NCBI RefSeq assembly: GCF_000219625.1
Contig: NC_018201.1
Location: forward strand, 80,179-144,178
DNA length: 64,000 nt
Reading direction: 5' to 3'
DNA from: Zymoseptoria tritici IPO323
Lineage: Eukaryota; Ascomycota; Dothideomycetes; Mycosphaerellales; Mycosphaerellaceae
The notes under the pieces: generated by a model
What the model saw: only the letters and a program-made list of their open reading frames with translations
What the model was told of the DNA's origin: nothing
Database searches by the model: none
Position numbers and translations under genes: made by a program
Shown here: in pieces, positions 4,754 through 54,645 of the stretch
Layout: every line of letters begins with the position of its first letter
Numbering within the stretch: the stretch's first letter is position 1

Positions 4754-5837
4754 TATTAGATTTATAAACGATAGGATTAAATTACTTATACTAAGTAATC
4801 TATCTACCGAGGGGATTCGAGGCCCTTATATCCCCCTTCTATATATATAGATAGAGTTGTTTGTTTGTTTGTTTGTTTGTTTGTTTGTTTGTTTGTTTGT
4901 TCCATTTACGTCCTTTCGGAGTCCAAGACTATGTAGGACGGCTTTGCTATAAAGGCAAAGCAGTAGATCTAGTTACAATTAGATTTTTCGGTATTCTTTG
5001 ACCTTAGGGGAGACCCCGTGCCTAAGGCAATGCTAAAGGACTTTAAACAAATGCGAGACAAAGGAAATCAAACGAGTGTTGTAGCCTAAGGCTGCAGAAT
5101 TTTCGCGCTAAGCTTTTGTAGAATTTTCAGCGGATCCTTCCGCTTCGCATACACGCTGCGAATTCGAAAGAGATGTAGCGCAAGGCGATATAGCGCAAAG
5201 GCGCAAAAAGCAGCTATCCAACTCGCTGCCTTCTCTTGTCCTTAATATACCTTTGTGGAACTATATGCCGCCTTCTAGCGTATATAGCTACGTAGGTTAA
5301 TCGTAGAGTTGTAGATTCCACCGAGTTCTAGCTCTTTAAAGTACATATATGCTTCCTTCGAGGGCGACGAAGTCTCTAGAGAAGGGACATGCGATTTCGA
5401 TTCGGATTTCGAGGAGGTGCGCGTATAGGGCAGAGCAGACTGCTTCTTTCTTCTTCTCGTTCGTAGCGTAGAGGGCTATTCGTTCGAATCGTGCTGTTGT
5501 TCTGTTGTAGCTCGTGTTTCGAGGCGGATTTCGAGAAGGATTTCGGGCGGATTCGAGAGGTTTTCGAGGAGGTTTCTTCCAGACTGTCTTAGTTTCCCTT
5601 CCAAGGAAGGTACTTACGACGGCCACCGCGTGAAGGTGCAGTCTGTTCGGCCGTCTATAGATAGAGTTAAGTGCGTAATCCCCTACGTAATAGCCCTATT
5701 TCGTCCCTTTGTTTCGAGCTATATCTAGTTAGTCCCTATATATTAGCTATATATATCTATATATATATAGCCGAAATAGGTAGTATATATCGTATATAGC
5801 TAGTATATCCGATCGTCCGGTATCCCTCGTTCTAATA
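4754..5837 (-). repeat. Copia-1 LTR (5' LTR of the minus-strand element) split by a nested retroposon
   Basis: The LTR is about 272 bp after removing the insertion and one target duplication. It ends at 5837 with TTCTAATA, where the first LTR has TTCTAACA, a C to T change. Confidence 0.82.
4859..5655 (-). mobile_element. SINE-like non-autonomous retroposon, copy A
   Basis: About 797 bp. On the minus strand it starts GACGGCCGAACAGACTGC and ends in a (CAAA)n tail, seen on the plus strand as about ten GTTT units at 4859-4900. It is flanked by a 13-bp direct repeat TATAGATAGAGTT (4846-4858 and 5656-5668), a length typical of LINE-mediated insertion. A near-identical element lies at 32042-32813 with a different 14-bp target duplication, so both ends are defined by two independent insertions. 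No pol III A and B boxes were confidently found, so a short LINE-derived element is as likely as a tRNA-type SINE. A 96-codon open stretch at 5336-5626 is probably not a gene. Confidence 0.8.
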
Positions 5838-32041: not shown

Positions 32042-32813
32042 GTTTGTTTGTTTGTTTGTTTGTTTGTTTGTTTGTTCCATTTACGTCCTTTCGGAGTCCA
32101 CGACTATGTAGGACGGCCTTGCAAGCAAGGCAGTAGATCTATTTACAATTAAATTCTTTCGGTATTCTTTGACCTTAGGGGAAACCCCGTGCCTAAGGCA
32201 GGACCTGCAAGCAGAATCTGCCGAAGGACTTTAAAACAGCGCAAGACAAAGGAAATTAAACGAGTGTCGTTGTCTGCAGCCGGGGCTGCAGAATTTTCGC
32301 GCCAAGCTTTTTGCAGAATTTTCAGCGGATCCTTCCGCTTCGCACATACGCTACAAATTCGAAACGCAGTGCAAAAGCAGTGCAAAATGCCGTGCAAAAG
32401 CACTGCAAAAGCAGCTGTCTAACTCGCTGCCCCCTCTTATCCTTAATACGCCTTTGTGGAACTACATACCGCTTCCAAACGTATACAGCTACGCAGGCTG
32501 ATCGTAGAGTTGTAGATTCCACCGACTGTTCTAGCTCTTTAAAGTGCACGAGGTGCGATTTCGGTTCGGATTTCGAGGAGGTGCGCGTATAGGATAGAGT
32601 GGACTGCCTCTTCTCGTTCGTAACGTAGAGGGCTGTTCGTTCGAATCGTGCCGTTGTTCTGTTATAGCTTGTATTTCGAGGCGGATTTCAAGAAGGATTT
32701 CGGGCGGATTTCGAGAGGTTTTCGAGGAGGTTTCTTCCAGACTGTCTTGGTTTCCCTTCCGAGGAAGGTACTTACGACGGCCACCGCGTGAAGGTGCAGT
32801 CTGTTCGGCCGTC
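32042..32813 (-). mobile_element. SINE-like non-autonomous retroposon, copy B
   Basis: About 772 bp and collinear with 4859-5655. On the minus strand it starts GACGGCCGAACAGACTGC and ends with a (CAAA)n tail (plus strand GTTT units, 32042-32074). It is flanked by the 14-bp direct repeat TCGCTAGAAGCCTT (32028-32041, 32814-32827). It keeps more CpA/TpG than its surroundings, so it inserted after the host block was RIP-mutated or escaped later cycles. Confidence 0.8.
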
Positions 32814-32827
32814 TCGCTAGAAGCCTT

Positions 32828-33629
32828 CGTAATATATACTAGACGCTCTATACCCGATGTTCTATCCGAGAGTATCTATCCTCTAACGAGGGCGTATTAG
32901 ACGTCGATAGTCTTATATAACTCTAATACGCTATTCTTACGATTATCGGAGGAGAATAATTTAGCTAAGCTATTATCGGTTAAGAGGTCCGAGTTCTTAT
33001 ATCCCTCTTATTTAAGTAGAGATAGGGTCGCTACTAGGTAGGTACCTAGTCTAATCTCTCGCTACCCTTCGATAGGTAAGACGTAGGTATATAAGTCGGC
33101 TAGGCCCTTACTAATATAGAAACTATAAGTAGACTTACTACGATTATAATGTCGTCTTCTTTTCTTAAATATACTATATCTTCTACTATCGTTAGCTTAA
33201 TAGTAATAAGTTTAAGCTATTACTACTTATACCGTTATAACTCCGTTACGTCGTTAGGAGTCTATAACTCGTAGAAGTTTACCGATAGTCCTAGGGCTAG
33301 CGTTATAGCAAACTAGCCGTTACTTCGAGGCTCGTCTAGTTATAATCGGCGCTACGGTATTTTATAAGATCTAACTTATAAGCTAAGCTAGTAATAACCT
33401 TTAAGTAACGTCGTATACTCTAATGCGGAAGCTAACCTCCGTATAGCCGGTTTCTAATTCACCCTCGTATACTCTACGATTAGCTTCCTATTGTTGTTCT
33501 AGGAGTCTAGTATTACCCGAACTAGCATTTAGCCGAGAACTTTAAGACTGTTTGCTATCTCCGTTGTAGCCCCTTAGACTCTAGATAAATTCTCGGCAAG
33601 CTTCTCGTCGCTACGCGACTACAATGGCC
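32828..33629. other. RIP-degraded AT-rich DNA, right end of the block
   Basis: Stop-dense DNA with no recognised domain. Composition returns to normal at about 33620, exactly where the motif array of the multigene element starts. Confidence 0.5.
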
Positions 33630-33705
33630 TTATCGCTCTGGTGTAACTTCTTTATCGTTCTGGTGTAGCTTCCTTTTGTTCTGTCGCTTCCTTTTTCGTT
33701 CTGAC
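33630..33705. repeat. Motif array L: four copies of TTATCGTTCTGG-type repeats
   Basis: Copies at 33630-33641 (TTATCGCTCTGG), 33652-33663 (TTATCGTTCTGG) and two shorter ones at 33675-33684 (TTTTGTTCTG) and 33695-33705 (TTTCGTTCTGA) are spaced about 20-23 bp. They lie about 300 bp upstream of the DUF6589-like gene. Confidence 0.75.
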
Positions 33706-34000
33706 TAAGCTGACCCGCTTCGCTAGTTTTGAGCCAATGGGAGCGCCGGATTCCATTTGGGGCCCAAGGGTCTGCCAGCTTATGGTGGTATACCGATATT
33801 TTGGTCGTGCAAGTGACTCTGTTGAAAAACGGAACGATTTGGGTGGGCGTTTGGGTTCCCCGCGTTCCGATTTTCAACAGAGGCAAGAGGTCGTGAAGCT
33901 GGTTTGGCTGCATACAACGATTCTTCAACAACACCCCAGCATAGATCTGAACACACGAGCTTGTTCAGCGCGCTTCGGTGATTGCAACCGTGTAATTTGA

Positions 34001-37000
34001 ATGGTTGCGCAACGTGAACCCGTCTCAAACGAGAGGCAAAAAGAACGCTGGTTTGGCAAACGCCAGTTTCCAGAACAAAAAGTCAACCACACACCAGAAC
34101 AATAACTCCACCACCACCAAAATACCCCTGACAGCCCCGACAACCCCCAAGATAGTCCCGGTACTGTCACAGATACCCTCCAAGCGATTGCGCAACATCG
34201 TGTTGTCCACCCGAACACCTCCACCGCTGCCATGGATCCTAACACTCCCTCCGGCGTGTCCCTGTTGAGCGAGATGGTGACATCTGAACTCGAGCGCATG
34301 GATATCGGTGATCTGAACGATACACAGCGCAGCGCAGTGGAGAAACTGCTCCGCGAGATCGAGGATGAAGACAATCAAGATGCCGAGCTGAGTGGTGAGG
34401 AGCCCGAAACCAACGAAGAGGATCCGGATGCCGATCCAGAGGATGAGGATGTTGATAACGATGAAGAAGAGCTGTTGCCTGGACAGGAGCGCACAGCTAA
34501 AGAGAAGCGGATCTTCCAGCTTAAGTTCAAGAATGTGATGAAGGCCGTTCGCGATGCTAGATTTGGTGGATTTGAAGCCCTTCTTCGCCACTGGACTCGC
34601 GCAGACAAGCTGCAGTATCGGTCAGCAACATACCGCCGTCGAGTCCGTAGAATCCAGTCAGTCCTGTGGCGTGAGAAGCTTGTTAGCACGAAGCAGATCC
34701 GGTCAGAGCTGAAGAAGCTTGTTAGCATGCCATTCTTCGACAAGTACAAGCCCGAGAACAGCATGAAGCAGGTCGAGCTGAATGAGATCAACGAGATCAT
34801 TCGCAAGACGGCGCCGACTTGGTATGCGATGATCAACGACGAGCTTCTGCCTAATGATCGCGCCAACTGGGCCGAAGTCAAGCAGCGATTCAAGAACAAG
34901 TACGACTTGATTGCAAAGCGCAGTGTGATAATGACGACCACTGTCGTCCACTCGATTGCCAAGCAGCGTGCGAACTGGATGCCAAAGGCGCTCGGTTTGT
35001 TGTTGGTCACAGGTGGTGTTAAGAGCCGTCTGATTTCAGTTCTTAATCGCGCCGGCCTCGTGTCTGGTTTCAAGACCCTCCAAGCTCTTCAAGAATCGAA
35101 TGCCGATGAGCATATACGTGCGGTAGTGGAAATGGCGAAGGATCCCCAGGTGCTGATCGCGTACGACAACTTCTGCCGCCAGGAGCAGAAGAATGAGCAG
35201 GTCGTTGGGCAGAAGAACGAGCAGAAGAATATGACCACGTCCCTAATCGCGAAGTGCCAGTACATCCACAAGAACATCAACAAGGGCATGGTCAATTGGA
35301 AGACGCCACTCTTGGCCAAGAGCATCATTCGCAACCTCGGCAGCAAGGACACCGTCGGTGACATCCTCGCTCGCGGCAAGCAGAGCGCCAAACACCTTGC
35401 AGCGCAGGACACCCAAGCGGATGCTTAAGGTCGTCCTGTGGCCGGACCTGTGTACGGTCCAGAGCCACCTCCTTAGGCTCAGGCTCAGACTTAGACTCAG
35501 ACTCAGACTCGCGATCCGTTCGCCGCGACTGTGGAAGACGCTCCGGAAGATGAAGGAGAAGGTGGCCCAGATCCTGCGATGTTGGCGATGACTCCGGACC
35601 ATGCAACCGCGCTGTATCACATTAACCAGAGTATGGCCGCTGCGATTGGCAACGAGATCATTAACCAACTGTTTGGGTCCGGTGGCAGTCGTCCGCAATG
35701 GCCAGTGCTTGACGAGCTGATCCATGCGCTTACCCAAGTGCTGTCGCTGCCGGTGTCGATGAATGATGAGGCCTCCCTTAAGGGGACGTATGCGGTGCAT
35801 GAGGACGTCTGGCTGAGGTTTCTGAAGTTCTGCAGAGAAGACTTCAAGGCTGAGAAGAGTGGTCGGTTGTGGCTCATCCATGGTGACCAGATGACGATCG
35901 AACGCGCTCGCTCGGTGATGAAGGAGATGGTCGAGAGCGAGCTCTCGTTCGACAAGAAGGATTGGATGCTTCCGATCCCTGCCTGGTTCCACATCAAGAT
36001 GAATAACCTGTGGACTGTTGCAATGCGCACGCACTATGATCTAAACAAGGACGGCGATGTCCTTGATCACGGCCTCAAAGCCGACAACAAGTACTTCGGC
36101 ATTAAGAAGATCACCAACAAGAACCCCAAGTTCTTTAACACGCAGAGTCTTGTTGTTCGTGGGTTCAAGGCTTGCGTTCTCGGCATGTTCGTGCAGGAAC
36201 TGAAGGATCGCCAGGATTGCACGTTCGTTCGGCGCGGTGATGAATCTGATCTGGATGCGATCCGTCGCTCGGTGTCTGATATGGGCAAGACCAAGTATCT
36301 GGAAGTCTTGGAGTCCATCTACCAGAAGGCGTTCACTGCGAAGGCGTGGAAAGGAACTGATGCTACGGCCGAGGATCCGACCTTCATTAAGGATCCGGTA
36401 TTTACGACACAGGCCCGCATGATGCAAGAAGTGGAGCTCTTTATGACCATTGGCAAGGCGACTCGGATGGAGGACATTGGCCACATGCGCCGCCTCGTGG
36501 ATCGATTGATTATCCAGTTCCTTAGTGCAGGCCAGAGCAACTACGGTCGTGAGATGATCTACCTGCGGTGGTTGTTGAGCGAGGCTGTCGATGAAGAACT
36601 CCAGACCGGTATCCTGGCTTCCAGTGTCCTGAACCAGTCTGGTCATCGCAGCAAGGCAGTGGCCACGGACGAGCTCGTCGAAATCTACAATATGGAGTAC
36701 TCCATGGACATCAAGCAGCACGCCAACTCCACGCACACTCTCGACAAGACCTTTCGTCGCATCGCCCTCATGCGCGAGTGCACCCGTGTGCTGAAGCTGA
36801 TCTTCGGTGGACTCGGAGCGACGTACACTAACTATCACACTGCGAAGAACACATCCGACGACATCATCGGATATGGCATGCAGCTCCAGGAGAAGGGCCT
36901 CTCGTCCATCAAGGCTCGCACTGGTGCCCTGTCAGAGGACATCCGGCAAGCTGGTGTGGAACTTCTGTTGTCGAAGGTCGGTAACTTCAACACTGAGAAC

Positions 37001-37222
37001 CGGCGTTTCGCGCGTGGTATCACCACGGTCTCGCCAAACTTCGACGATGGTGAGCCTGAGGATTTCGGTCAACACAGTGAAGCTGCTGCTGAGGATGGCG
37101 ATGAAGCATTCATTGCGGCTGGTGGAGGCGGCGAGGACGAGATCGAGGAGGAGATCGGGGAAGATGACTGGGAGGATGTTGCAGACGATGGGGCTGTCGG
37201 TGGAATGAGCAGCGCCTTGTGA
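34001..37222 (+). pseudogene. DUF6589-like protein gene, single reading frame with four premature stops
   Basis: One frame runs from ATG 34001 to TGA 37222, about 1073 codons without an intron. It is interrupted only by TAA 34103, TAA 35426, TAG 35474 and TAG 35492, all explained by CAA/CAG to TAA/TAG. The N-terminal part from 34232 is very acidic, followed by a Lys/Arg-rich segment and helices (FKNVMKAVRDARFGGFEALL). A Gln-Thr linker with repeated CAGACT codons separates the two halves. The second half has RLWLIHGDQMTIERARSVMK at about residues 623-642, then a GFKACVLGMFVQELKDRQDC region, and ends acidic. The HGDQ segment in an all-helical fungal protein is what I associate with DUF6589, a family of unknown function often found in repetitive DNA. 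A role as recombinase or transposase is conjecture. Confidence 0.66.
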
Positions 37223-37268
37223 GTGCGAATGAGCTGTTGATGCGAAGGGGTGGTGAAACGATGACTGT

Positions 37269-37486
37269 CCAGAGCAATAAGTCGGTTGTGCCAGAACAAC
37301 TCGAAGTAGTCAGAACGAAAAGTCCCTGTTATCAATGTGCCTTTGCCTCTGATCTCAGCCGTTGTCGCCTTGTGGTCACTCGTAGCTCAGAGCAATAACT
37401 TCGCTTATGCCAGAACGATAATATCGCTCGTGTCAGAACGATAACCTCATGCTAAAGCAATAACATCGCTCGTGCCAGAACAATAA
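37269..37486. repeat. Motif array M1: about eight CCAGAACRATAA-type repeats
   Basis: Clear copies: 37269-37280 (CCAGAGCAATAA), 37387-37398 (TCAGAGCAATAA), 37410-37421 (CCAGAACGATAA), 37433-37444 (TCAGAACGATAA) and 37475-37486 (CCAGAACAATAA), with shorter ones near 37291, 37310 and 37453. The last five recur every 20-23 bp. The array lies between the DUF6589-like gene and the next genes, inverted relative to array L. Confidence 0.8.
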
Positions 37487-37786
37487 CCTCAGGCTGAAAT
37501 GCGGTCGGAGGGTGAAGTGAAGCTCGGTTCGGTCAGGGAGTGAAGGGTTGTCGCCAATGTGAGGTTTCTCACCAATAGGAAGGAAAGTGAGTCGTCCGGT
37601 GACAAAACGTCGTCGATCGCCGCTCTGTTTGTCGTCTGCTTCTTCTTCTTCTTTCTCCTCACGTACAACAGCAGCAGCCGCAACATCACTGCCGCCGGAT
37701 CTCTCTTCCCTTTTTGTTGTCCGTCCATGCCTATCGAAGGCATCACCATCATCGCCATCATCACAATCCGCCGCGCCGCCGCCACC

Positions 37787-38171
37787 ATGTCTCGTCTCGC
37801 TGCCCATTGGGCACGCCAGCTCTTTCCGTTCGTTGCGAGCTCGACCAAGAGCCGCTCCACCACCAGCATCACGAAGTAAGTCCAGCAGTCCAGCAGTCCA
37901 GCGGTCCAGCAGTCCAGCGGTCCAGCAGTGAAGCGGTCGTCCGGTGACTTTTAAGCTAACTTCAATGTAGGCGTGACAAAACCCGCCACCTATCCGACGA
38001 TCGTGGTCGCGACACAGTCCCTCCGTCCATCCCGGCCTTCTCCTTTGCTCCGCCGGTCACCACCTCTTCCGACAACAACATCATCCTCGACGACGACGAC
38101 GATGACAATGCTGGCTTCGCTGGCTTCACCGGTGGCGGCTCGCCTTCTTCCTCTCCCTCGCCCGCCCATCT
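37787..38171 (+). CDS. Small hypothetical gene, two exons seen
   Basis: ATG 37787 is in a strong GCCACCATG context. Exon 1 encodes MSRLAAHWARQLFPFVASST and ends at 37875. The 95-bp intron (GTAAGT donor, GCTAAC branch, GTAG acceptor at 37970) contains a small GTCCAGCAGTCCAGCGG repeat. Exon 2 (37971-38171) gives KRDKTRHLSDDRGRDTV, then a Pro/Ser and Asp-rich stretch, ending at another GTAAGT. The third exon is not resolved; it could join the Cys-rich gene that starts at 38382, making this its 5' part. No family recognised. Confidence 0.42.
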
Positions 38172-38381
38172 GTAAGTCCACGTTTTCTGCTTTGTCGAAG
38201 AGATTGTCGACAATCGCACGTGAAGCCGACAATACCACGAAATCACCTCCTCCTGCTGCCTATATCACTCCGCACCCACCTCATTCTTCTCGTCCTTCTT
38301 CTTCGCTTCTTCGTCACGCACCAGCACGCCACCTCTGTCGCCATCACCAACACCAACATCAACACCAATACCAACATCAAG

Positions 38382-39088
38382 ATGTCGCGCTCTTCTCCTC
38401 CCTTCGTAGAAGTCGACCTGGACGCTTTGCTGGACGATGTCGCTGAATATGCCGACCGAGAACCTGCGCGCGCTGCTGCCCCTGCCTGGCGCCCTCTCTT
38501 GCCCTCTCCTTCGCCCGCACATCAACCACACCTCCGCCGCCACCACCAAGAGCCGCTAGTCGCCTTTCTGCCCTGCGCCGTCCTGCTCTTCGCCGCCGCA
38601 GCTCACCACCACCACCATCCTCCGACCCGTTCGAACTTGTCGTGCCCTCAGATGAGGAAGAAGAAGACGACGATGACACCCTGCTTGCTCCTGCTCCAGC
38701 TCCAGCTCCAGCTCCAGCTCCGACACCTCCTCAACAGCAACAACAACAGCAAGACCGCGGTCGCGGTCGACCTTCTGGCTCTGGCTCTGCGGAGCTATAC
38801 CAGCCACAAGAGACTGGCAAGTGGTGGACGAAGCAGGTGGATCGGATCGGCTGGGACAACATGAAGCCAGCTGAGCCGAGGAAGATCTCGGCTGTCGCCA
38901 GAATTGAAGAGCAGCCGCAGTATAGCACTGCTCGGATTCCGGCCTGCAAGAAGTGTGTTCTAAGAGAGCAACGCGGTGGCATTAGCCCGTGCAAAGTGTA
39001 CACACACGAGGCTGCCGGTCTGTTCGAGAAGGGCAAGGCGTCGGTCAAGTGCTCCCGTTGTCGCGTCGGTGGAGAGGTGTGCGAGTAG
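38382..39088 (+). CDS. Cys-rich, probably zinc-binding protein (copy 1)
   Basis: ATG 38382 (MSRSSPPFVEVDLDALLDDV) opens a frame that must shift once, by indel or unrecognised intron, between about 38480 and 38560. It then reads PFELVVPSDEEEEDDDD, an Ala-Pro repeat, Gln run and DRGRGRPSGSG basic patch. The C-terminal domain has Cys at CKKC, SPCK, CSRC and VC before TAG 39088, with spacing C-x2-C-x10-C-x18-C-x2-C-x6-C. The pattern resembles short zinc-binding domains of fungal transposon proteins, and the GRGRP patch resembles an AT-hook. A diverged homologue at 54196-54645 keeps the same end. It lies convergent to the helicase gene. DNA binding is inferred. Confidence 0.58.
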
Positions 39089-39201
39089 ATAGCCTTGAAA
39101 CGAGCTGGTTTAGTAGTGTCTTCAATCTTCAATCTTCAATCTTGAAATCTCAGGTCGAGTGTGTCCATTTTCCGGCTTCTGCAATCTTTCTAGCTCCTGT
39201 G

Positions 39202-39405
39202 TTTTTTGTCCTAACACGATTGTATTTTTTGTCCTAACGCAATGGATGGCTGGATTCGTGGATTCGAGGTTCGGAGATTCGCAGACTGTAGAGTCGATCG
39301 AGTTCGAGATTCGTAGGCTGTAGAGTCGATCGAGTTCGGGGTGGCTGCAGATAGCAGGCATTATTTGTCCTAACGCAATTCGCGATTCGTGTTAGGACAA
39401 TAAAT
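39202..39405. repeat. TTGTCCTAAC repeats, three direct and one inverted
   Basis: TTTTTGTCCTAAC is at 39203-39215 and 39226-39238, ATTTGTCCTAAC at 39364-39375, and the inverted GTTAGGACAATAAA at 39392-39405. TTAGGACAATAA differs from CCAGAACAATAA only by transitions, so these are probably variants of the same motif. Between them a 30-bp stretch with CTGTAGAGTCGATCGAGTTC occurs twice (about 39284-39306 and 39318-39338). Confidence 0.65.
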
Positions 39406-39420
39406 GTAAGGGATCGGTCG

Positions 39421-39458
39421 GCGTTGGCGTTGGCGTTGGCGTTGGCGTTGGCGTTAGG
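39421..39458. repeat. TTGGCG hexanucleotide repeat
   Basis: About six units between the Cys-rich gene and array M2. Confidence 0.85.
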
Positions 39459-39719
39459 GAGGATGCATTCGAAGAAGAGAAGATGAAGTGTGTCGAGGAC
39501 AACAGCAGGAGGATTTGGGGCGTGATACAAAGTGGTTTGAACGCTTTGCGGAGGCAGCCCCGCTTATGTCGTACGACACTTTGCGACAGCATCCGTTCTA
39601 ACAACAGACAAACGATCCTCATGCGACGGCGAAAACGATCATTATGCGACACTAACTGCGACAGCGACCGAGCCTAGCCGCGACCAAACCTGCCGCAATG
39701 AGGTTGAGTTTTAAGGCCC

Positions 39720-39794
39720 TCAGAACAATACGTCGACTACTGCCAGAACAATAAGTCTGCCGTCAGAACAATATGTTAGCGCGCCAGAGCAGAA
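39720..39794. repeat. Motif array M2: CCAGAACAATAA-type repeats
   Basis: Copies lie at 39720-39730 (TCAGAACAATA), 39743-39754 (CCAGAACAATAA), 39763-39774 (TCAGAACAATAT) and 39783-39794 (CCAGAGCAGAAA), 20-23 bp apart. They lie between the convergent Cys-rich and helicase genes. Confidence 0.78.
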
Positions 39795-40375
39795 AGTCTA
39801 AGAGCAAGAGAGGTGGTTATCAGGAAGCGAGGCTGAACAAGAACTTCTCATCGAATCTACGGAAGCTCTACGATATACACGGTGTTCTTAACATGAAGAG
39901 ACCAGAGTTCCCACCGGTTGCTGTCGACTTAAGCTATACCGGATATTCCGATTACACCTCCTTAGTCTCCGCCTGCTTCAACCTCTCGGGCTGCTATCGC
40001 GATTCACACCCCGTAGATTCTTCGCCGTGAAGGAGCGCTTGCGACCCCGGCTGCTCCTAAGCGACACCGTCTCTAGCATAGCCTGCAATTGCTCGCCGGT
40101 AGGAGGAACCTCCGTAGTCGTGTCTCTGCCTAGTGAGAGGATGCGTGCGCGCGTAGCTGGACCGCCCACCTCTGCGGTTTGCTGTTCTTCAATGACACTC
40201 TTCTGTCCGGTTGCGCCGGTGACAGCTGGTGTGGATCGACGACGAGTGGTAGGTGAAGTAGTCGATGGACCAGCGATTGGAGCACTCGCCGGACCAGCTG
40301 CGACACCTGCCAGATTCTGCGTCTGCAGAGGTGCTAGATTGCGGGCTAATCGACGAGCTGGAGTCTGCTGGCCTG

Positions 40376-40540
40376 CTAGAGTCGGACCTGCTGGAGTCTG
40401 CTGGCTTGCTGGAGTCTGCTGGCTTGCTGGAGTCTGCTGGCTTGCTGGAGTCTGCTGGCTTGCTGGAGTCTGCTGGCTTGCTGGAGTCTGCTGGCTTGCT
40501 GGAGTCTGCTGGCCTGCTGGAGTCGGACCTGTTTAAGTCT
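40376..40540. repeat. 18-bp coding minisatellite (PASQQT repeat)
   Basis: About eight units of an 18-bp repeat (GGAGTCTGCTGGCTTGCT) encode PASQQT on the minus strand in the C-terminal tail of the helicase gene. The unit is in frame, so the copy number can change without breaking the protein. Confidence 0.8.
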
Positions 40541-43329
40541 GCTGGCCTGCTGGAGTCGGACCTGCTTAAGCCTAACCTGCTTGAGTTTGGGCTGCTTGGG
40601 CCTGCTTCGTTGCTCGAACGTTGGCTTGGACACGCAATGAATTGAGATCCGCTGAGTTCCGGATATTCCCCTGGGTGGCCTTGCGACGCGCATCCATGGC
40701 TGCACGGCCGGTGCCTTGGACTGTCTGTACTTGAGAGACAGCAGCGCGGAGTGCCGCTTTCCTCGCCTTCTCAGCCTCCTCGGCCTCCTTCTCCGCTGCT
40801 TCCTTGGCCTTATAGATGGTTTCCCACTTATGATGAACGTCGATCTGGTTAAGGTAGATCATCAACTCCTGGATATCCTGCTGCTCCGACCAGTTATTAA
40901 GAAGTGGCGCAGTTTCAAAGACTTCTTCGTCCGTCACACCAGGCCAATCCTTAGTAATGTTAGCGAAGATGTTGCACAGCTGGTACTGCAGGTCCTTGGA
41001 CATGTAGAAGTCGGTGGGGATCGTGAAGTGGAGCAGCTCGGCATTAAAGTTCTCGTCGTCGCTGAACATACTACTGGCAGTCGCCGACTTCTGCGCAGCC
41101 CACTGCTCGATGAATGCTAAGGCAACACCGCGACGCGAATCGACTGTTAGCTTTGATGGCTTCTTGGGACCGGGTGGTGGGCGCAAGTCGAGATTGTGTT
41201 CCTTCTCGAGCTCGGGATTGCACATGTTACAACACTTGTCGTTAGGGATTGGATCTTGTGGATACTGGCATCGCTCCTCACCAAGGTACTTGTTCTGGAC
41301 CTTGCGACAGCATAGGCCCTTGCCATTGTGCAAGAGGTGTGAGTTCCGGATCTCACGGAAGATAGTTGGTGTGTTCTTACGCTTCTTAATCTCGTCCTTG
41401 GTGAAGAAGCTCTTGCCGTCAGATGCCTTCTTCTTCTTCTTCTTGGCTGGCGCATCCTCGTACTCGCTGTCGCCACGGTCGCTCTCGTCACCACCAACGC
41501 CTTCGCCTGGATTCGCAGCGTCACCCTCGCCAGGGATCTCATTAGCGAGCAAGGACTCGCGCAGACGGGAGCTAAGTCGGACTGGACGCTCTCGACGGCT
41601 TCGTGGAGACAACACGGTTGGCAATGGGCCCGCTGGCACTGGCTCTAGCTCTTCCTCAGGAGGCGGCGGGATAAGCGATGTACCTCCGGAGTCAGGATGC
41701 ACATGCTTCTCCTCGTTATCGAGCCAATGCTCCTGGAAAGTCATGCCAATGCCATAGATCTTGTCACCATTCTCGTCCACCTGATCTTGAAGGCGATGCG
41801 ACCGACCAAGACGCTGTGTCTGATCCTCGGGATCCTTGGTAATGGGAATCTTGTTCTGGGTCACATACTTGATATCTAGAACGTTGGTGCCGGTACTGAT
41901 TTTGGTCGTGCCAGCCATAATGCGGATCTGGGACTCCCGGCCAAGCTTCTTGAACTCATTGTATCGCTTGTCCTGGTCATGCGGAGCGACATGGGCAGTG
42001 TAGAAGGACACGATCTTGTCGACATCATGGCCACCACTGCTATCGTTCGTGTATCGATGCTCGAGTGGCTGGCTCTGCGTTTTCTCAACGAGCCATCCAC
42101 GCACAATGTTGCAGAAGTTGGTAACCGCGGTGCGGCCATCGATGAATACCAGCGCCTTGTCCATCGAGCCAGGGCTGGCATGGCCATTGTCGTCGACTGC
42201 CTTCCGCACGAGGAAGGACAGATAGTCGTAGTCAACTGCGTTCGAAGGGATGTTCTTGACGATGTACGTGGTGTCTGGCCGATCGATGCTCCCACGGATG
42301 ACCTGCGTATGGAACGCTCCATCGCCGACTGGACGCATACCCACCGAGTCGCTGCTTAACAAGAACGCCTCAGTCTCAACCGAGATGGTCGCCGACACGC
42401 ACAGCATCGGCGCATCTAGCCTCAAGCCGCTGCGCAGCTCACCAATCTGGGCATACTCCTCGCGAAACTTAATCCACTTCATTACAAGATAAGACTCGTC
42501 AATTACGAGAAGTCCGATCTTGTTGCGCACACGCTTGACCAACGCGCGAAAGGTTGGCTCTGCAGCAGTCTCTGGGCCGACAATCCAGTGTGTTCGATCG
42601 CCAGCTTCCAGTTCTTCCAGCTACTTGGGATTGGCAGCCTTGCTCTCCTTGGTAATGTTAATAGGACGCACGAGTCCACCGCTGGATGAGGCTTCTGCAA
42701 TGCGACGAAGATCCTCGGCGTGTTCATCGCCAATGCGGTTGAGGGGTGTGATCTGAAGGGTGATGAGGCCGGCTGCGGATGTCTGTTAGCTGCGTGTGGA
42801 TGAAGCAAGGGAATGTGAAACTTACTTATGATTGTGACCGCCTGGAAGGTGATACTCTTGCCCTCGCCAGTACGCACGATGTTGAGAACATCCATCTGGC
42901 CAAACACGATCGCATTGACCATATCGATCTGGATCTCCTTCGGCTGGTAGCCCTTCCCTAGGTGAAGAAGATCGAAGATCTTAACCAAGCTGGCGATGAC
43001 AATCTCTCTCTAAACATCCATCTGGCCTGGACACTGGCCGACCATATACACGAGCTGCGGAAGTTCCTCGATTGACATAGTGGGGATGAGTGCACATTGG
43101 GCCTTGAAGTGCTGTGCGTAGTCTCGTGGATGATCTGGAAGCGGCACCGGCGCACATTGGAACTCTGGATGATCGCGAGTCACTGCACCACGGGCTGGCG
43201 CTTCGGCAGCAGTTTGCTCGGATGCTGGAGCTGGCCGCTTTGAGGATGTTGGAGCTGGCCGCTTCGAGGACGATGGTGCTGGCCGCTTGGTTAAAGAGGC
43301 ATATTGGCGAACCGTCCTGTCGCATTAAT

Positions 43330-44110
43330 TGCACACCGTCTGCTCAGCTTGTGAGGCATCCTTGTCAGGGTAGAAATCGATGCGCTCGAGATCGCGTGCA
43401 CATCACTTGCACCACTTCATCTCTATGTTAAACTCATCATCCAAAACGCCCTCGCAGTACTGGCACTTCCTACTCGGGCACCGGATGTTCTTGTTCCTCG
43501 ACACCTTGCAATTAGGGCAGTCGAAGTATGGCTCTGGCCGCTTTGAGAACGATGGTACTGGCCGCTTTAAGGATGATGGAGCTGGCTGCTTGGTTGACGA
43601 TGCTGGAGCCGGTCGTGGCACATAGTGTTCGTTGCATGCATCCTGCTCTCGACGCTTTAGGCTAGTGTCCTTCCCCGGGAAGAAGTCCTCGCGTGCGGTG
43701 TCATGTCCACCGCCTTGCTTGCACCACTTCATCTGGATATTAAGATCTGCATCGAGAATCTTCTGTTCACAGTACATGCACTCTCCGGTGTCCTCCTCAC
43801 CCTCCTACTTCGTGTCTCTCGAGAAGCCACATGTAATGCAGTCGAAGTAACGCGGATCGATCCCTCCAGCAAGCGGTGTGCAGCTGTAGCAGAAGTCTTT
43901 GCGCTCTGTACCGACTTGTGCATGGTTGAAGTTGACTCGCGTCGTCTCGTGTCCGCTGCTATGAATACACCACTTCAACTCCGAGCGCAAGTCGTTGTTA
44001 ACCGTGTCGGCATCACACCACACACAGAAGGATGCGCCTGGTGCAGTATCGCGAGCTCGAGCCCTGCGCATGGAACAGCCAGTGCACTCGAAGAACAACG
44101 GAAGAGAAGC
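43330..44110 (-). other. Three tandem Cys-rich units at the helicase N-terminus
   Basis: Each unit follows the pattern F-x-C-x2-C, about 15 residues, C-x2-C, about 12 residues, KWC, a short gap and then an F-P or similar ending. Examples are FECTGCSMRR then FCVWCDAD then LKWCIHSSGH; FDCITCGFSR then CMYCEQK then MKWCKQGGGH; and FDCPNCKVSR then CQYCEGV then MKWCK. Paired CxxC plus His suggests two zinc ions per unit. The third unit is cut by TGA 43403. Confidence 0.65.
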
Positions 44111-44375
44111 ATCCTCAGACGGATCGCCACCCATCGGCGTGTCCTCCTGCTACTGAGGCGAGTCGATATCCATCCTCTGCATCGCTTCCAGCTCCTCAGC
44201 AGTCGGCTCCATCGACTCGCTTCCGCCATAGTGTCTTCCTCGATATCCGCCTCGATTCACACGCCCTGCTTGCTCTTGTGCCGCCCTCGCAGCCTGCTCG
44301 GTCGCGCGCTGCTCAGCCTCTCGTGCACGCTGGTCGGCGAAGAAATTGGTCACAAGGCCACCACGACTTCACGTG

Positions 44376-44387
44376 CCAGAGCAATTA
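44376..44387. repeat. Motif copy R: CCAGAGCAATTA
   Basis: A single copy of the element motif just upstream of the helicase gene start, taken as the minimal right border. Confidence 0.55.
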
Positions 44388-44399
44388 GTATAAGGGCGG

Positions 44400-45420
44400 G
44401 AGCTCTCTTGAAAGCGCCTGTGTGGAGGTAGACTGTTTGCTGCAATCGACTATCGGACCCCGGGTAGAAGATAGTGTACCATATCTCCAGATTGATCACA
44501 ACGTCACTTTGCGATTTTCAAAGCACAAGCCGCCGGTTCTAAGGCTGTAGAAGACGTATCGTTTTCTACGCCGTCTATATACAGCAACTGCAAACCGTTC
44601 CTACTACGTAAAAGCAAGAAAACTATCGTTGCTATCGTCGTCGGGTCTACGTATTTTATAGTATTATCGAGGTATAATCTATACTGCGTTTCGAAAGCCT
44701 AGTATATAAAGTACGTAGTCTATACTAAGATATCTCCGATCGATTCTAGCGACGACGACAGCGATATCGATAGTAAGAAACATCTCTTATAATCCTAAAC
44801 AAGATGTCTACCTTACTCGGAATATAGGACGCCGCTCTCGATCGAAGTAGATATATAGGCCTTAGCAAACAGTATACAGATCTGTCTTTCGACAAAAACA
44901 CCAAAATCGCAGAAATCGAGAAATCGACGTTGTGATCAATTTGGAGGTATGGGGCGCCATCAGAAGAGCAGACGACGTCGCTCGAAACTTTAAAGTTTTG
45001 ACGGCTGCGGAGCCGTCTCCTGAGGTCCGCTTCCCGGTGCTCCTTCGGCGCGTCCCGCTCTGACGATGGCATCCTGTATGTAGTTAGTCTCAGAAGCACA
45101 GACCCTCTTGGCGAGCACTAACCTCTAGCGCCATCTCCGCTCCACGGGACTGTTACTTTCAAGTTGCTCAGTCTGTCTGACAATAATGTCCGCAGAGTGC
45201 CTGGCTCGCTTGTAATGCATGATTGATCCGACCTACACCTCTGAACGTCAAGCGCGCCGCCAATTCTCCGCGGCTCGTGACCACACGAGCACGCCATGAC
45301 AACTGCTTCCATTCCGCACCGGAAAGCGCGCGCAGTGCCATGGTGCAGAACGTGCTCCGGGCTTGCTTTGAGCCGTCATATCCTGGGGCTGATGATGAGC
45401 TCTAAATTCGTACCGCCGAG
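44400..45420. other. No gene recognised; partly RIP-like (44540-44760)
   Basis: The part at 44540-44760 is AT-rich and stop-dense, like the RIP blocks. The rest has only short frames. No repeat matching the neighbouring element was found. Confidence 0.35.
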
Positions 45421-51352: not shown

Positions 51353-53099
51353 GAAGTTGTGGAAGCTCCCCATCACCAAGGATATCGACCATGTGAATCA
51401 GAAGGCCGGTCGGGCCGTTCGTGCCCAAGGTCTGACTGGATACTTCGTCTGGTTTTATTCGTACTATGTCGACGATGCACAGAAGAACGTCCCAGAAGGA
51501 TCCAAGCATGATTCGATGGTTCACCGCGATGGAGGAGCAGCTACTCCGTATCAGCCAGAGCCGGCGCGCGCGCATGAACACGCACCTTTCCTGCCGAGTG
51601 GACCGCGCAACACGACCATGGCAGAGGCAGGTGAAGGTCTCCTCGGTGATCCAGATCAAGATGGCGATACTGACGATGCTGCTGCTGTCGCTGCCGCTGC
51701 CGCTCGCCTTGGGATTTCATCCGATGACAACTACCACAAGAAGGACTGGACCAAGCAGGAGATCGAGTGGCGTGAAAAGGAGACGAACATCATCCGCCTC
51801 GCCCTTAACAGCCAGTACCTTGCGACACTACGCTGCTGTCGTGTCGTGTGCAACCATCTGTATGAAGAGCATCTCAAGATGTACGACTCTGTCGCAGTCG
51901 ATCCGATCAAATGCTGCAGCATGTGCAACCCAGCGCTGCTCCAGCTTATTCTCTGGGAAAAGGAGCCACCAGCCGTGCCAAAATCGAGGACAGCACCAAG
52001 AGCAGGCTCGAAGCAAGCATTCTTCTTGCCCAAGCTGAAGGACATTCTCGGCCAATTCTGTCGCAAGGCATTCGACTTCGAGGCAATCCAGCAGGGATAC
52101 GACTTCGACAATCTGTTGGCGGATCTGCCATACAATCTCCTCATCGAAGACCAGTACGTTTGGGAGCTGGCCGAGTGCATTCGGTTTGAGGGTCTGGAGC
52201 GGCCAGATAGTGAGCCAGAGTTAACGGCGGATGATATCAAGGATCTCGCACCGCTGTTTTCTGCATGGCATGCTGACGGCGGACCTGTGCGTCGCTCTGA
52301 GATTCCCCTCGGGCTATTGGCACAGGAGATAGTCAAGGTGGCCCCAGATGTGTACATTGAGCGTCGCGCAGATCTCGACAAGAAGTAACGCAACCGTGAA
52401 GCGGTTAAGGAAGCAGCGAGGAAGAAGGCCAATCTAGATGCAGCCCCGAGGCCGTCGCTTCCAGAGACTACCGTCGCCCAGTGCAAGACTGGTCACACAC
52501 AGCGCTCTGACAAGTCGGCCCAAGCAGCTACACTGCTGCAGCAAGCTCTGGCCAACTCGAATTCCATGGCTGACGATGCAGAAGATGAGGATCGAGGGCG
52601 TGCCGCTAAGCGTGGTCGTGGTGGCAGGGGCAGAGGCAGAGGTAGACCACACAAGCGCGGTCGCGGAGGACGCGGTGGAACTGCTGGTGGAACTGCTGGT
52701 GGAGAGACTGGTGGAGACGAGGCTGGTAGAGAGACTGGTGGCGCAGGTGGAAGCACTGTGGACAAGCGCCCTGCAAGTGAAGCAGCATTGACTCCTCTCG
52801 GTCGCGAGTCTCAAGTGCCACGAGTTGGCAGTCCTGGAAGCAGCACAATGGTCGCGCCAGGCAACATCGCCGGTCCATCCAGTCGTCCTGCTGCGGCTAC
52901 CACTCCTGCTCGTGCTGCTCAATAGCAAATGCACGACGCCAACCAGACCGTCTGTCGCAGCAGCGGCCGTGAACGCACACCATCACGCAGAGTCCAGGAG
53001 GCTAGGAGCGCAGAGGCAGAGTTCGGTGAGATGGACGACTTCCTCGGCCTTGATGAGGTGGACGAGAGTCCGGTGCGTCCTCGCCGTCGCCGCAATTGA
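51353..53099 (+). pseudogene. RecQ-like helicase, C-terminal half (copy 2)
   Basis: The frame begins abruptly after a TAG at 51351 with KLWKLPITKDIDHVNQKAGR, aligned to the motif VI region of the helicase at 40-44 kb (NKIPITKDPEDQTQRLGR). RALNSQ-type sequence and CRVVCNHLYEEHL then DPIKCCSMCNPALL match that copy's CCRKVQNKYLGEER and DKCCNMCNPELE. TAA at 52386 and TAG at 52923, both one C to T from CAA/CAG, interrupt it. A GRGRGRP basic patch and repeated GGTAGG-type residues follow, and the protein ends with an acidic then Arg-rich tail (VDESPVRPRRRRN) at TGA 53097-53099. All upstream helicase motifs are missing, so this is a 5'-truncated copy. Confidence 0.72.
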
Positions 53100-54195: not shown

Positions 54196-54645
54196 CTACT
54201 CGCATACGTGGCCGCCAAAGCGGCAGCGAGCACACTTGCCAACACCAAGCCCTTTATTAAAACGAGCACGTCCAGCCGCCGTGTACACTCTACATGGGGT
54301 GTATCCCCTAACGCGGTCCCGCCCAACACAACGAGCATACCTCTCCGACCGATCTTCTCCAAACGCAGTCTCTTCAATCCGCGCGGCATGCGAGCGCCGG
54401 CGCGAGTTCTAGTCCGACAGGACCTGGCCGACCGCATTGGAGTGGCTGCTGTAGTACGCACCATTGATCGTTGGCACGTACTCCTCAGCAGCTCCACTTC
54501 CAACCGGCCGACCAGTCCGTCCTCCTCCTCCTCTTCCTCTTCCTCCTCTTCCTCCTGTTGCTGTTTTTGCTTCTGAATTGATGGTGTGAAAGGTTTTCAC
54601 ACCCTCTGCCAAGCCCGTGAGGAACCGTAACCATGGTTTATCCAA
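54196..54645 (-). pseudogene. Cys-rich, probably zinc-binding protein (copy 2)
   Basis: The minus frame from about 54645 reads KPWLRFLTGLAEGVKTFH, a GRGGRGRGGGGRTGRPVGSG basic patch, then EEYVPTINGAYYSS, an in-frame TAG after GQVLSD (near 54409), and HAARIEETAFGEDRSERYAR. It ends TPCRVYTAAGRARFNKGLG, GKCARCRFGGHVCE and TAG 54196. This aligns with the 38382-39088 protein (SGSAELYQPQ, VARIEEQPQY, SPCKVYTHEA, KCSRCRVGGEVCE). The first Cys of the CKKC pair is Tyr here, a TGY to TAY change. The 5' end is not defined. It is convergent with the helicase fragment ending at 53099. Confidence 0.68.
54582..54602. other. Short perfect hairpin
   Basis: GGTGTGAAA and TTTCACACC are separated by three bases, within the 5' part of the copy-2 Cys-rich gene. 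It may be chance or a protein-binding palindrome. Confidence 0.5.

Follow-up and report, generated by a model that had tools for sequence, protein, structure and literature searches.

AcademH is reportedly a lineage of the Academ superfamily, set out by Kojima in 2020, and its members have terminal inverted repeats. The target site duplications of AcademH are 9 or 10 bp long, and those of AcademX are 3 or 4 bp (PMC10045372). In fungal Academ elements, recognisable protein domains, such as PF00270 and recQ_fam, were found in 1,568 of 1,938 copies (PMC6416283), and AcademH occurs in low copy number in Basidiomycota, Ascomycota and Mucoromycota (PMC10799480). A second helicase-bearing group, KolobokH, has a RecQ helicase and is reported from fungi alone; Kolobok elements make 4-bp TTAA duplications and have 5'-RR termini (PMC9587614). 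The element described here lies in a 64-kb stretch of Zymoseptoria tritici DNA, called the window below, which is 80179-144178 of contig 18 (C18) in the searched genome of 39.7 Mb and 21 contigs. The finished genome of this fungus is 39.7 Mb in 21 chromosomes, with numbers 14-21 being dispensable (PMC4522978), and C18 is presumably the dispensable chromosome 18. Three genes, for DUF6589, a small Cys-rich protein and a RecQ-like helicase, make up a single element, as shown by gene content, ends, target duplication, motif clustering, co-occurrence of the genes and sister copies. We consider it very probable that this is one AcademH-type DNA transposon of class II (cut-and-paste), with DUF6589 as its DDE transposase.

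The ends were sought by scanning the flanks of the element for 9-10-bp duplications next to inverted ends. In the flanks scanned, GACTGTTTGC was the sole exact duplication of 9 or 10 bp whose inverted ends, TATCTCC and TACCTCC, start with TA. When the flanks were base-shuffled in 300 trials, 4% of the trials gave any such match of a duplication with inverted ends, and 0.7% gave one with TA ends. The duplication is embedded in a 12-bp direct repeat, AGACTGTTTGCT (33545-33556 and 44430-44441), and for this reason the exact cut point is set by the inverted ends. The beginning of the element, TATCT, is common to the sister elements C2, C5 and C3b described below. Ends at the outermost motif copies had been our first guess, which was dropped for 33556/44430 after the scan; a second scan candidate, 31174/44846, was without TA at both ends. 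The extent of 33630-44387 given in the original prediction was therefore roughly right, with the ends lying slightly outside it, near 33556 and 44430. A query made of the two flanks found no empty site in this genome, with zero loci across the junction. Its left part matched itself alone, and the matches of its right part, itself aside, were to a separate small repeat starting at 44470.

The association of DUF6589 with the helicase is repeated across the genome. There are 43 DUF6589 pieces, comprising 41 profile matches (E 0.001 or better) and 2 from the protein search alone; these are matched pieces, some belonging to one copy, and the split by architecture that follows is counted on them. 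All genome match lists used here are lower bounds. A match to the window helicase, of which the genome has 39, lies within 20 kb of 40 of the 43 pieces; the other three are at C3:1594739 (27 kb from a helicase match), C18:474716 (none near) and C19:177694 (none on the contig). In the tandem architecture, seen in 32 of the 40, the helicase is upstream on the same strand, and in the convergent architecture, which is that of the window and accounts for 8 of the 40, it is downstream on the opposite strand. Co-occurrence elsewhere had been set as a check for all three genes; it holds for DUF6589 and the helicase, and the small Cys-rich gene is present in only some copies.

Both architectures yield defined elements. 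In DNA searches, the tandem family has a sharp edge common to many copies, and TAGTCTCAG stands at that edge in 16 of the 16 helicase-side ends read, the query copy included; for five of them the printed edge is one base early. In all three tandem copies for which both ends were read (3/3), TAGTCTCAG stands inverted at the two ends and the duplication is a perfect 9 bp (GCCCTTCAC, ACAGGACGG and AAGATGCCA); the copy on C8 is 13,631 bp long. The duplication scan was also run on seven other DUF6589-helicase loci, with C8 as positive control. It gave a 10/10 duplication around 18,171 bp at C2, a 9/10 duplication around 11,124 bp at C5 and an 8/10 duplication around 12,929 bp at C3b, all with TATCTYATG ends. 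No TA-ended candidate was found by the scan at C3a, C7 or C1, and the AT-rich C18b gave several chance-like matches. The noise of the scan consisted of one weaker candidate each at C2 and C5 and one false one at the control C8. C2, C5 and C3b, sisters of the convergent type, are collinear end to end except for inserts, with a 23-bp inverted repeat, TATCTYATGTRGATCAGAACCGC, and they share a repeated motif, CTTTCGGGGC, in 6 to 8 copies each. No ends were found on reading the internally deleted C19 relic (L033). These sister copies bear on the idea that separate neighbouring insertions at the window locus merely resemble one element. The inner motif clusters might be the ends of smaller units, and a relative of the Cys-rich gene stands free elsewhere, but the sister elements enclose DUF6589 and the helicase within one end pair, and the DUF6589-Cys-helicase order is repeated on C7 and C3, which makes separate insertions a very unlikely account. 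The single multigene transposon put forward in the original prediction is borne out by the conserved ends and target duplications of the sister copies.

The repeated 12-bp motif, which had been noticed together with the inversion of its left copies, is confined to the element. Searched as [CT]AGA[AG]C[AG]A[TA]AA, it occurs 12 times in the 64 kb, 12/12 of them inside the element, and 1000 base shuffles of the element gave 0.06 matches on average and never more than 2. At the left end, the three copies (33630, 33652 and 33693) are on the minus strand, and the other nine are on the plus strand, as had been claimed. A looser search allowing two mismatches gave 25 matches in the window, 10 of which lay outside or on the minus strand relative to genes, with 8.8 expected. 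The copies fit a role as putative transposase binding sites. The features of the element are collected in Table 1.

Table 1. Coordinates of the element and its parts (positions in the window).
Feature	Position	Strand	Basis or remark
Whole element	33556..44430 (10,875 bp)	.	ends uncertain by ~2 bases
Left target site duplication GACTGTTTGC	33546..33555	+	perfect 10 bp
Left inverted end TATCTCC	33556..33562	+	6/7 identical to right end
Left subterminal motif copies	33630..33703	-	motif search
DUF6589 gene, N-terminal part	34232..35428	+	alignment with P0002 and relatives; YDNF, candidate catalytic Asp codon 35165
DUF6589 domain	35531..37222	+	Pfam PF20231, E 1.2e-62; HGDQ Asp codon 35885, NYGREM Glu codon 36551
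Internal motif cluster, DUF6589-Cys-rich spacer	37270..37487	+	motif search
Small Cys-rich gene	38383..39088	+	two frames here; open reading frame 38642-39088
Internal motif cluster, Cys-rich-helicase spacer	39721..39798	+	motif search
RecQ-like helicase gene core	40572..42988	-	Helicase_C match and RecQ-matching relative
Helicase motifs	TGEGKS 42854-42871, VIDES 42492-42506, GRSHR 41793-41807	-	
Cys-rich repeats with in-frame stops	43403..44134	-	translation
Right-end motif copy, weaker (two mismatches)	44377..44388	+	motif search
Right inverted end TACCTCC	44424..44430	-	sequence as read on - strand
Right target site duplication GACTGTTTGC	44431..44440	+	perfect 10 bp

The two plus-strand open reading frames (ORFs) at the left of the element share one reading frame. 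They are taken as parts of one DUF6589 gene because the relative P0002 has the YDNF stretch and the GDQ stretch within a single chain. Three stops (35426, 35474 and 35492) lie between the two, and there may be an intron here instead of plain stops. Among the matches listed is a protein of Z. tritici ST99CH_1E4 that has 100% identity to the DUF6589 ORF across 97% of the ORF. The candidate catalytic residues D, D and E are invariant among DUF6589 relatives. The predicted DUF6589 model has a modest resemblance to the P-element, Hermes and RAG transposases, at 7-12% identity. This gives modest support to a transposase fold and to the RNase H-like fold around HGDQ that had been suggested earlier. 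A search of solved structures by sequence gave no match to DUF6589, and the scanned DUF6589 proteins have no Pfam match to any other transposase family. Going by the model, DUF6589 is likely a transposase, so that the Pfam family PF20231 would gain a likely function; a text search of a limited literature collection found no account of this family.

P and hAT elements have target duplications of 8 bp. The identity to the P-element, hAT (Hermes) and RAG/Transib transposases is very low, as given above, and the duplication lengths differ. It is improbable, in our estimate, that DUF6589 is a P-element/hAT/RAG-like DDE lineage of its own, in which the helicase and the 9-10-bp duplications would be independent of Academ and the Cys-rich partner would have been exchanged with the host (the C11 gene below). 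Nor do we think it likely that the element belongs to a separate DDE superfamily sharing just the helicase and the duplication length with AcademH. The P-element/hAT/RAG-like character of the predicted model and the lack of a match to another Pfam transposase family favour such a separation, but the gene content and the duplication length fit what is published of AcademH and Academ.

In the helicase gene, ORF 40572-42542 matches Pfam Helicase_C (E 1.6e-5), and there is a probable intron near 42783-42826. The annotated relative P0014 is 98% identical to the window helicase with 73% of the query covered; it has DEAD and Helicase_C domains, and in the PDB it matches RecQ5, WRN and bacterial RecQ (best E 1.7e-9). 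The window ORF itself gave no match to solved structures by sequence. Annotated close relatives, among the matches listed, are in isolates ST99CH_1A5 (98%) and ST99CH_3D1 (84%). The DUF6589 and RecQ-like helicase genes that had been recognised by motif are therefore real, by the PF20231 and Helicase_C matches and by the RecQ structures matched by P0014. The gene layout proposed with them stands for these two and for the small gene at ~38.4-39.1 kb. It probably does not hold for the Cys-rich ORFs at 43.4-44.1 kb as a separate large gene; they are on the same strand as the helicase core and directly upstream of it, and hence they are probably the helicase N-terminus.

The start of the small Cys-rich gene was placed by eye from a comparison with the L032 paralogue. 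The gene has at least four matches in the genome besides itself: one on C7 and one on C3, each between the two genes of a convergent locus, one at window 54199-54516 and one on C11. The last of these (L032:4068-4739, minus strand, contig 11) is an intact free-standing homologue of 223 aa (66%); the closest DUF6589 match listed for that contig is ~275 kb away. It may be a host gene with a relationship to the one in the transposon. The window also contains what is left of a second such element, with no DUF6589 match listed there. It consists of an ORF at 51357-52388 (plus strand) matching the C-terminal part of the helicase at 28% identity and, on the opposite strand, the piece of the Cys-rich gene at 54199-54516 (minus strand), which has one stop.

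The element has in common with AcademH a helicase gene in a DNA transposon, here of RecQ/DEAD type, duplications of 9-10 bp (10 in the window and C2; 9 in all three tandem copies) and inverted ends (23 bp long in the convergent sisters and 9 bp long in the tandem copies, with a 6/7 match in the window). Low-copy occurrence in Ascomycota also agrees with the published account (PMC10799480). The window subfamily has in addition a small Cys-rich gene and a convergent gene order, which may set it apart from published AcademH members. The assignment to AcademH is made because the helicase gene and the 9-10-bp duplications match what the literature gives for AcademH and Academ; the element works like an AcademH element and most probably is one. 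It had been put forward as undescribed, and that claim is not supported: helicase transposons with 9-10-bp duplications are the AcademH lineage of the literature, and RecQ-type domains are reported in fungal Academ. KolobokH has a helicase of the same type alongside its transposase and is likewise fungal (PMC9587614), but the duplications here are 9-10 bp and not TTAA, and the ends start with TA and not RR, as Kolobok ends do. We give a KolobokH element very little credence.

For an AcademH-like element, we infer motif binding, roles for the helicase and the Cys-rich protein, and Academ membership. The DUF6589 protein would bind at the CAGARCAATAA motifs, which are subterminal, and at the TATCTCC ends, excise the element and insert it with a 10-bp stagger, by which the duplication would be left. 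The product of the opposite-strand gene, the RecQ-like helicase, would unwind the ends or help to process and repair them, and the small Cys-rich protein may be an optional accessory of the convergent subfamily.

The name Helitron has been given to three helicase-carrying repeat families of Z. tritici, numbered 98, 765 and 637 and totalling 390,961 bp, two of which have a 5' TA and a hairpin near the 3' end (PMC4522978). That the window element is itself a Helitron is nevertheless exceedingly improbable: it has inverted ends and target duplications, which Helitrons lack according to that paper, and its helicase is RecQ-like. The genome also contains at least 12 Helitron_like_N (Rep) matches, none of them near the listed DUF6589 matches in a by-eye comparison. 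On reading the sequence by eye, the tandem family has a TA start and an inverted repeat near the opposite end. It may be identical with published Helitron repeats of Z. tritici, and the helicase repeats formerly called Helitrons in this fungus may in part be AcademH-like elements.

Marks of repeat-induced point mutation (RIP), with TpA/ApT of 1.56-2.03, are present in the nine related loci examined, in some of them in part. The window element has a TpA/ApT of 0.55 and no RIP, and so, against nine RIP-marked loci, it offers a RIP-free copy with defined ends in a well-studied fungus. Among the matches listed, and short repeats aside, the genome holds DNA pieces related to it at 66-76% and one 59-base piece at 82%. 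The lack of RIP would be in keeping with a copy that has stayed single and has undergone no duplication. The window copy is probably now inactive and non-autonomous, because stops interrupt both main genes.

Several smaller repeats lie in and around the element. The one adjoining the right end (44470-44961) has 41-nt inverted arms (80%) and relatives at no fewer than 7 other loci. Just right of the element, window 45085-45132 has a 51-column match (94%) to the tandem-family terminus. Within the left part of the element, a short repeat at 33802-33893 has 23-nt inverted arms, and copies of it, 57-92 bases long and 82-97% alike, are in at least 6 other places. Two copies of a repeat found also inside the sister element C3b are at window 4864-5657 and 32047-32814.
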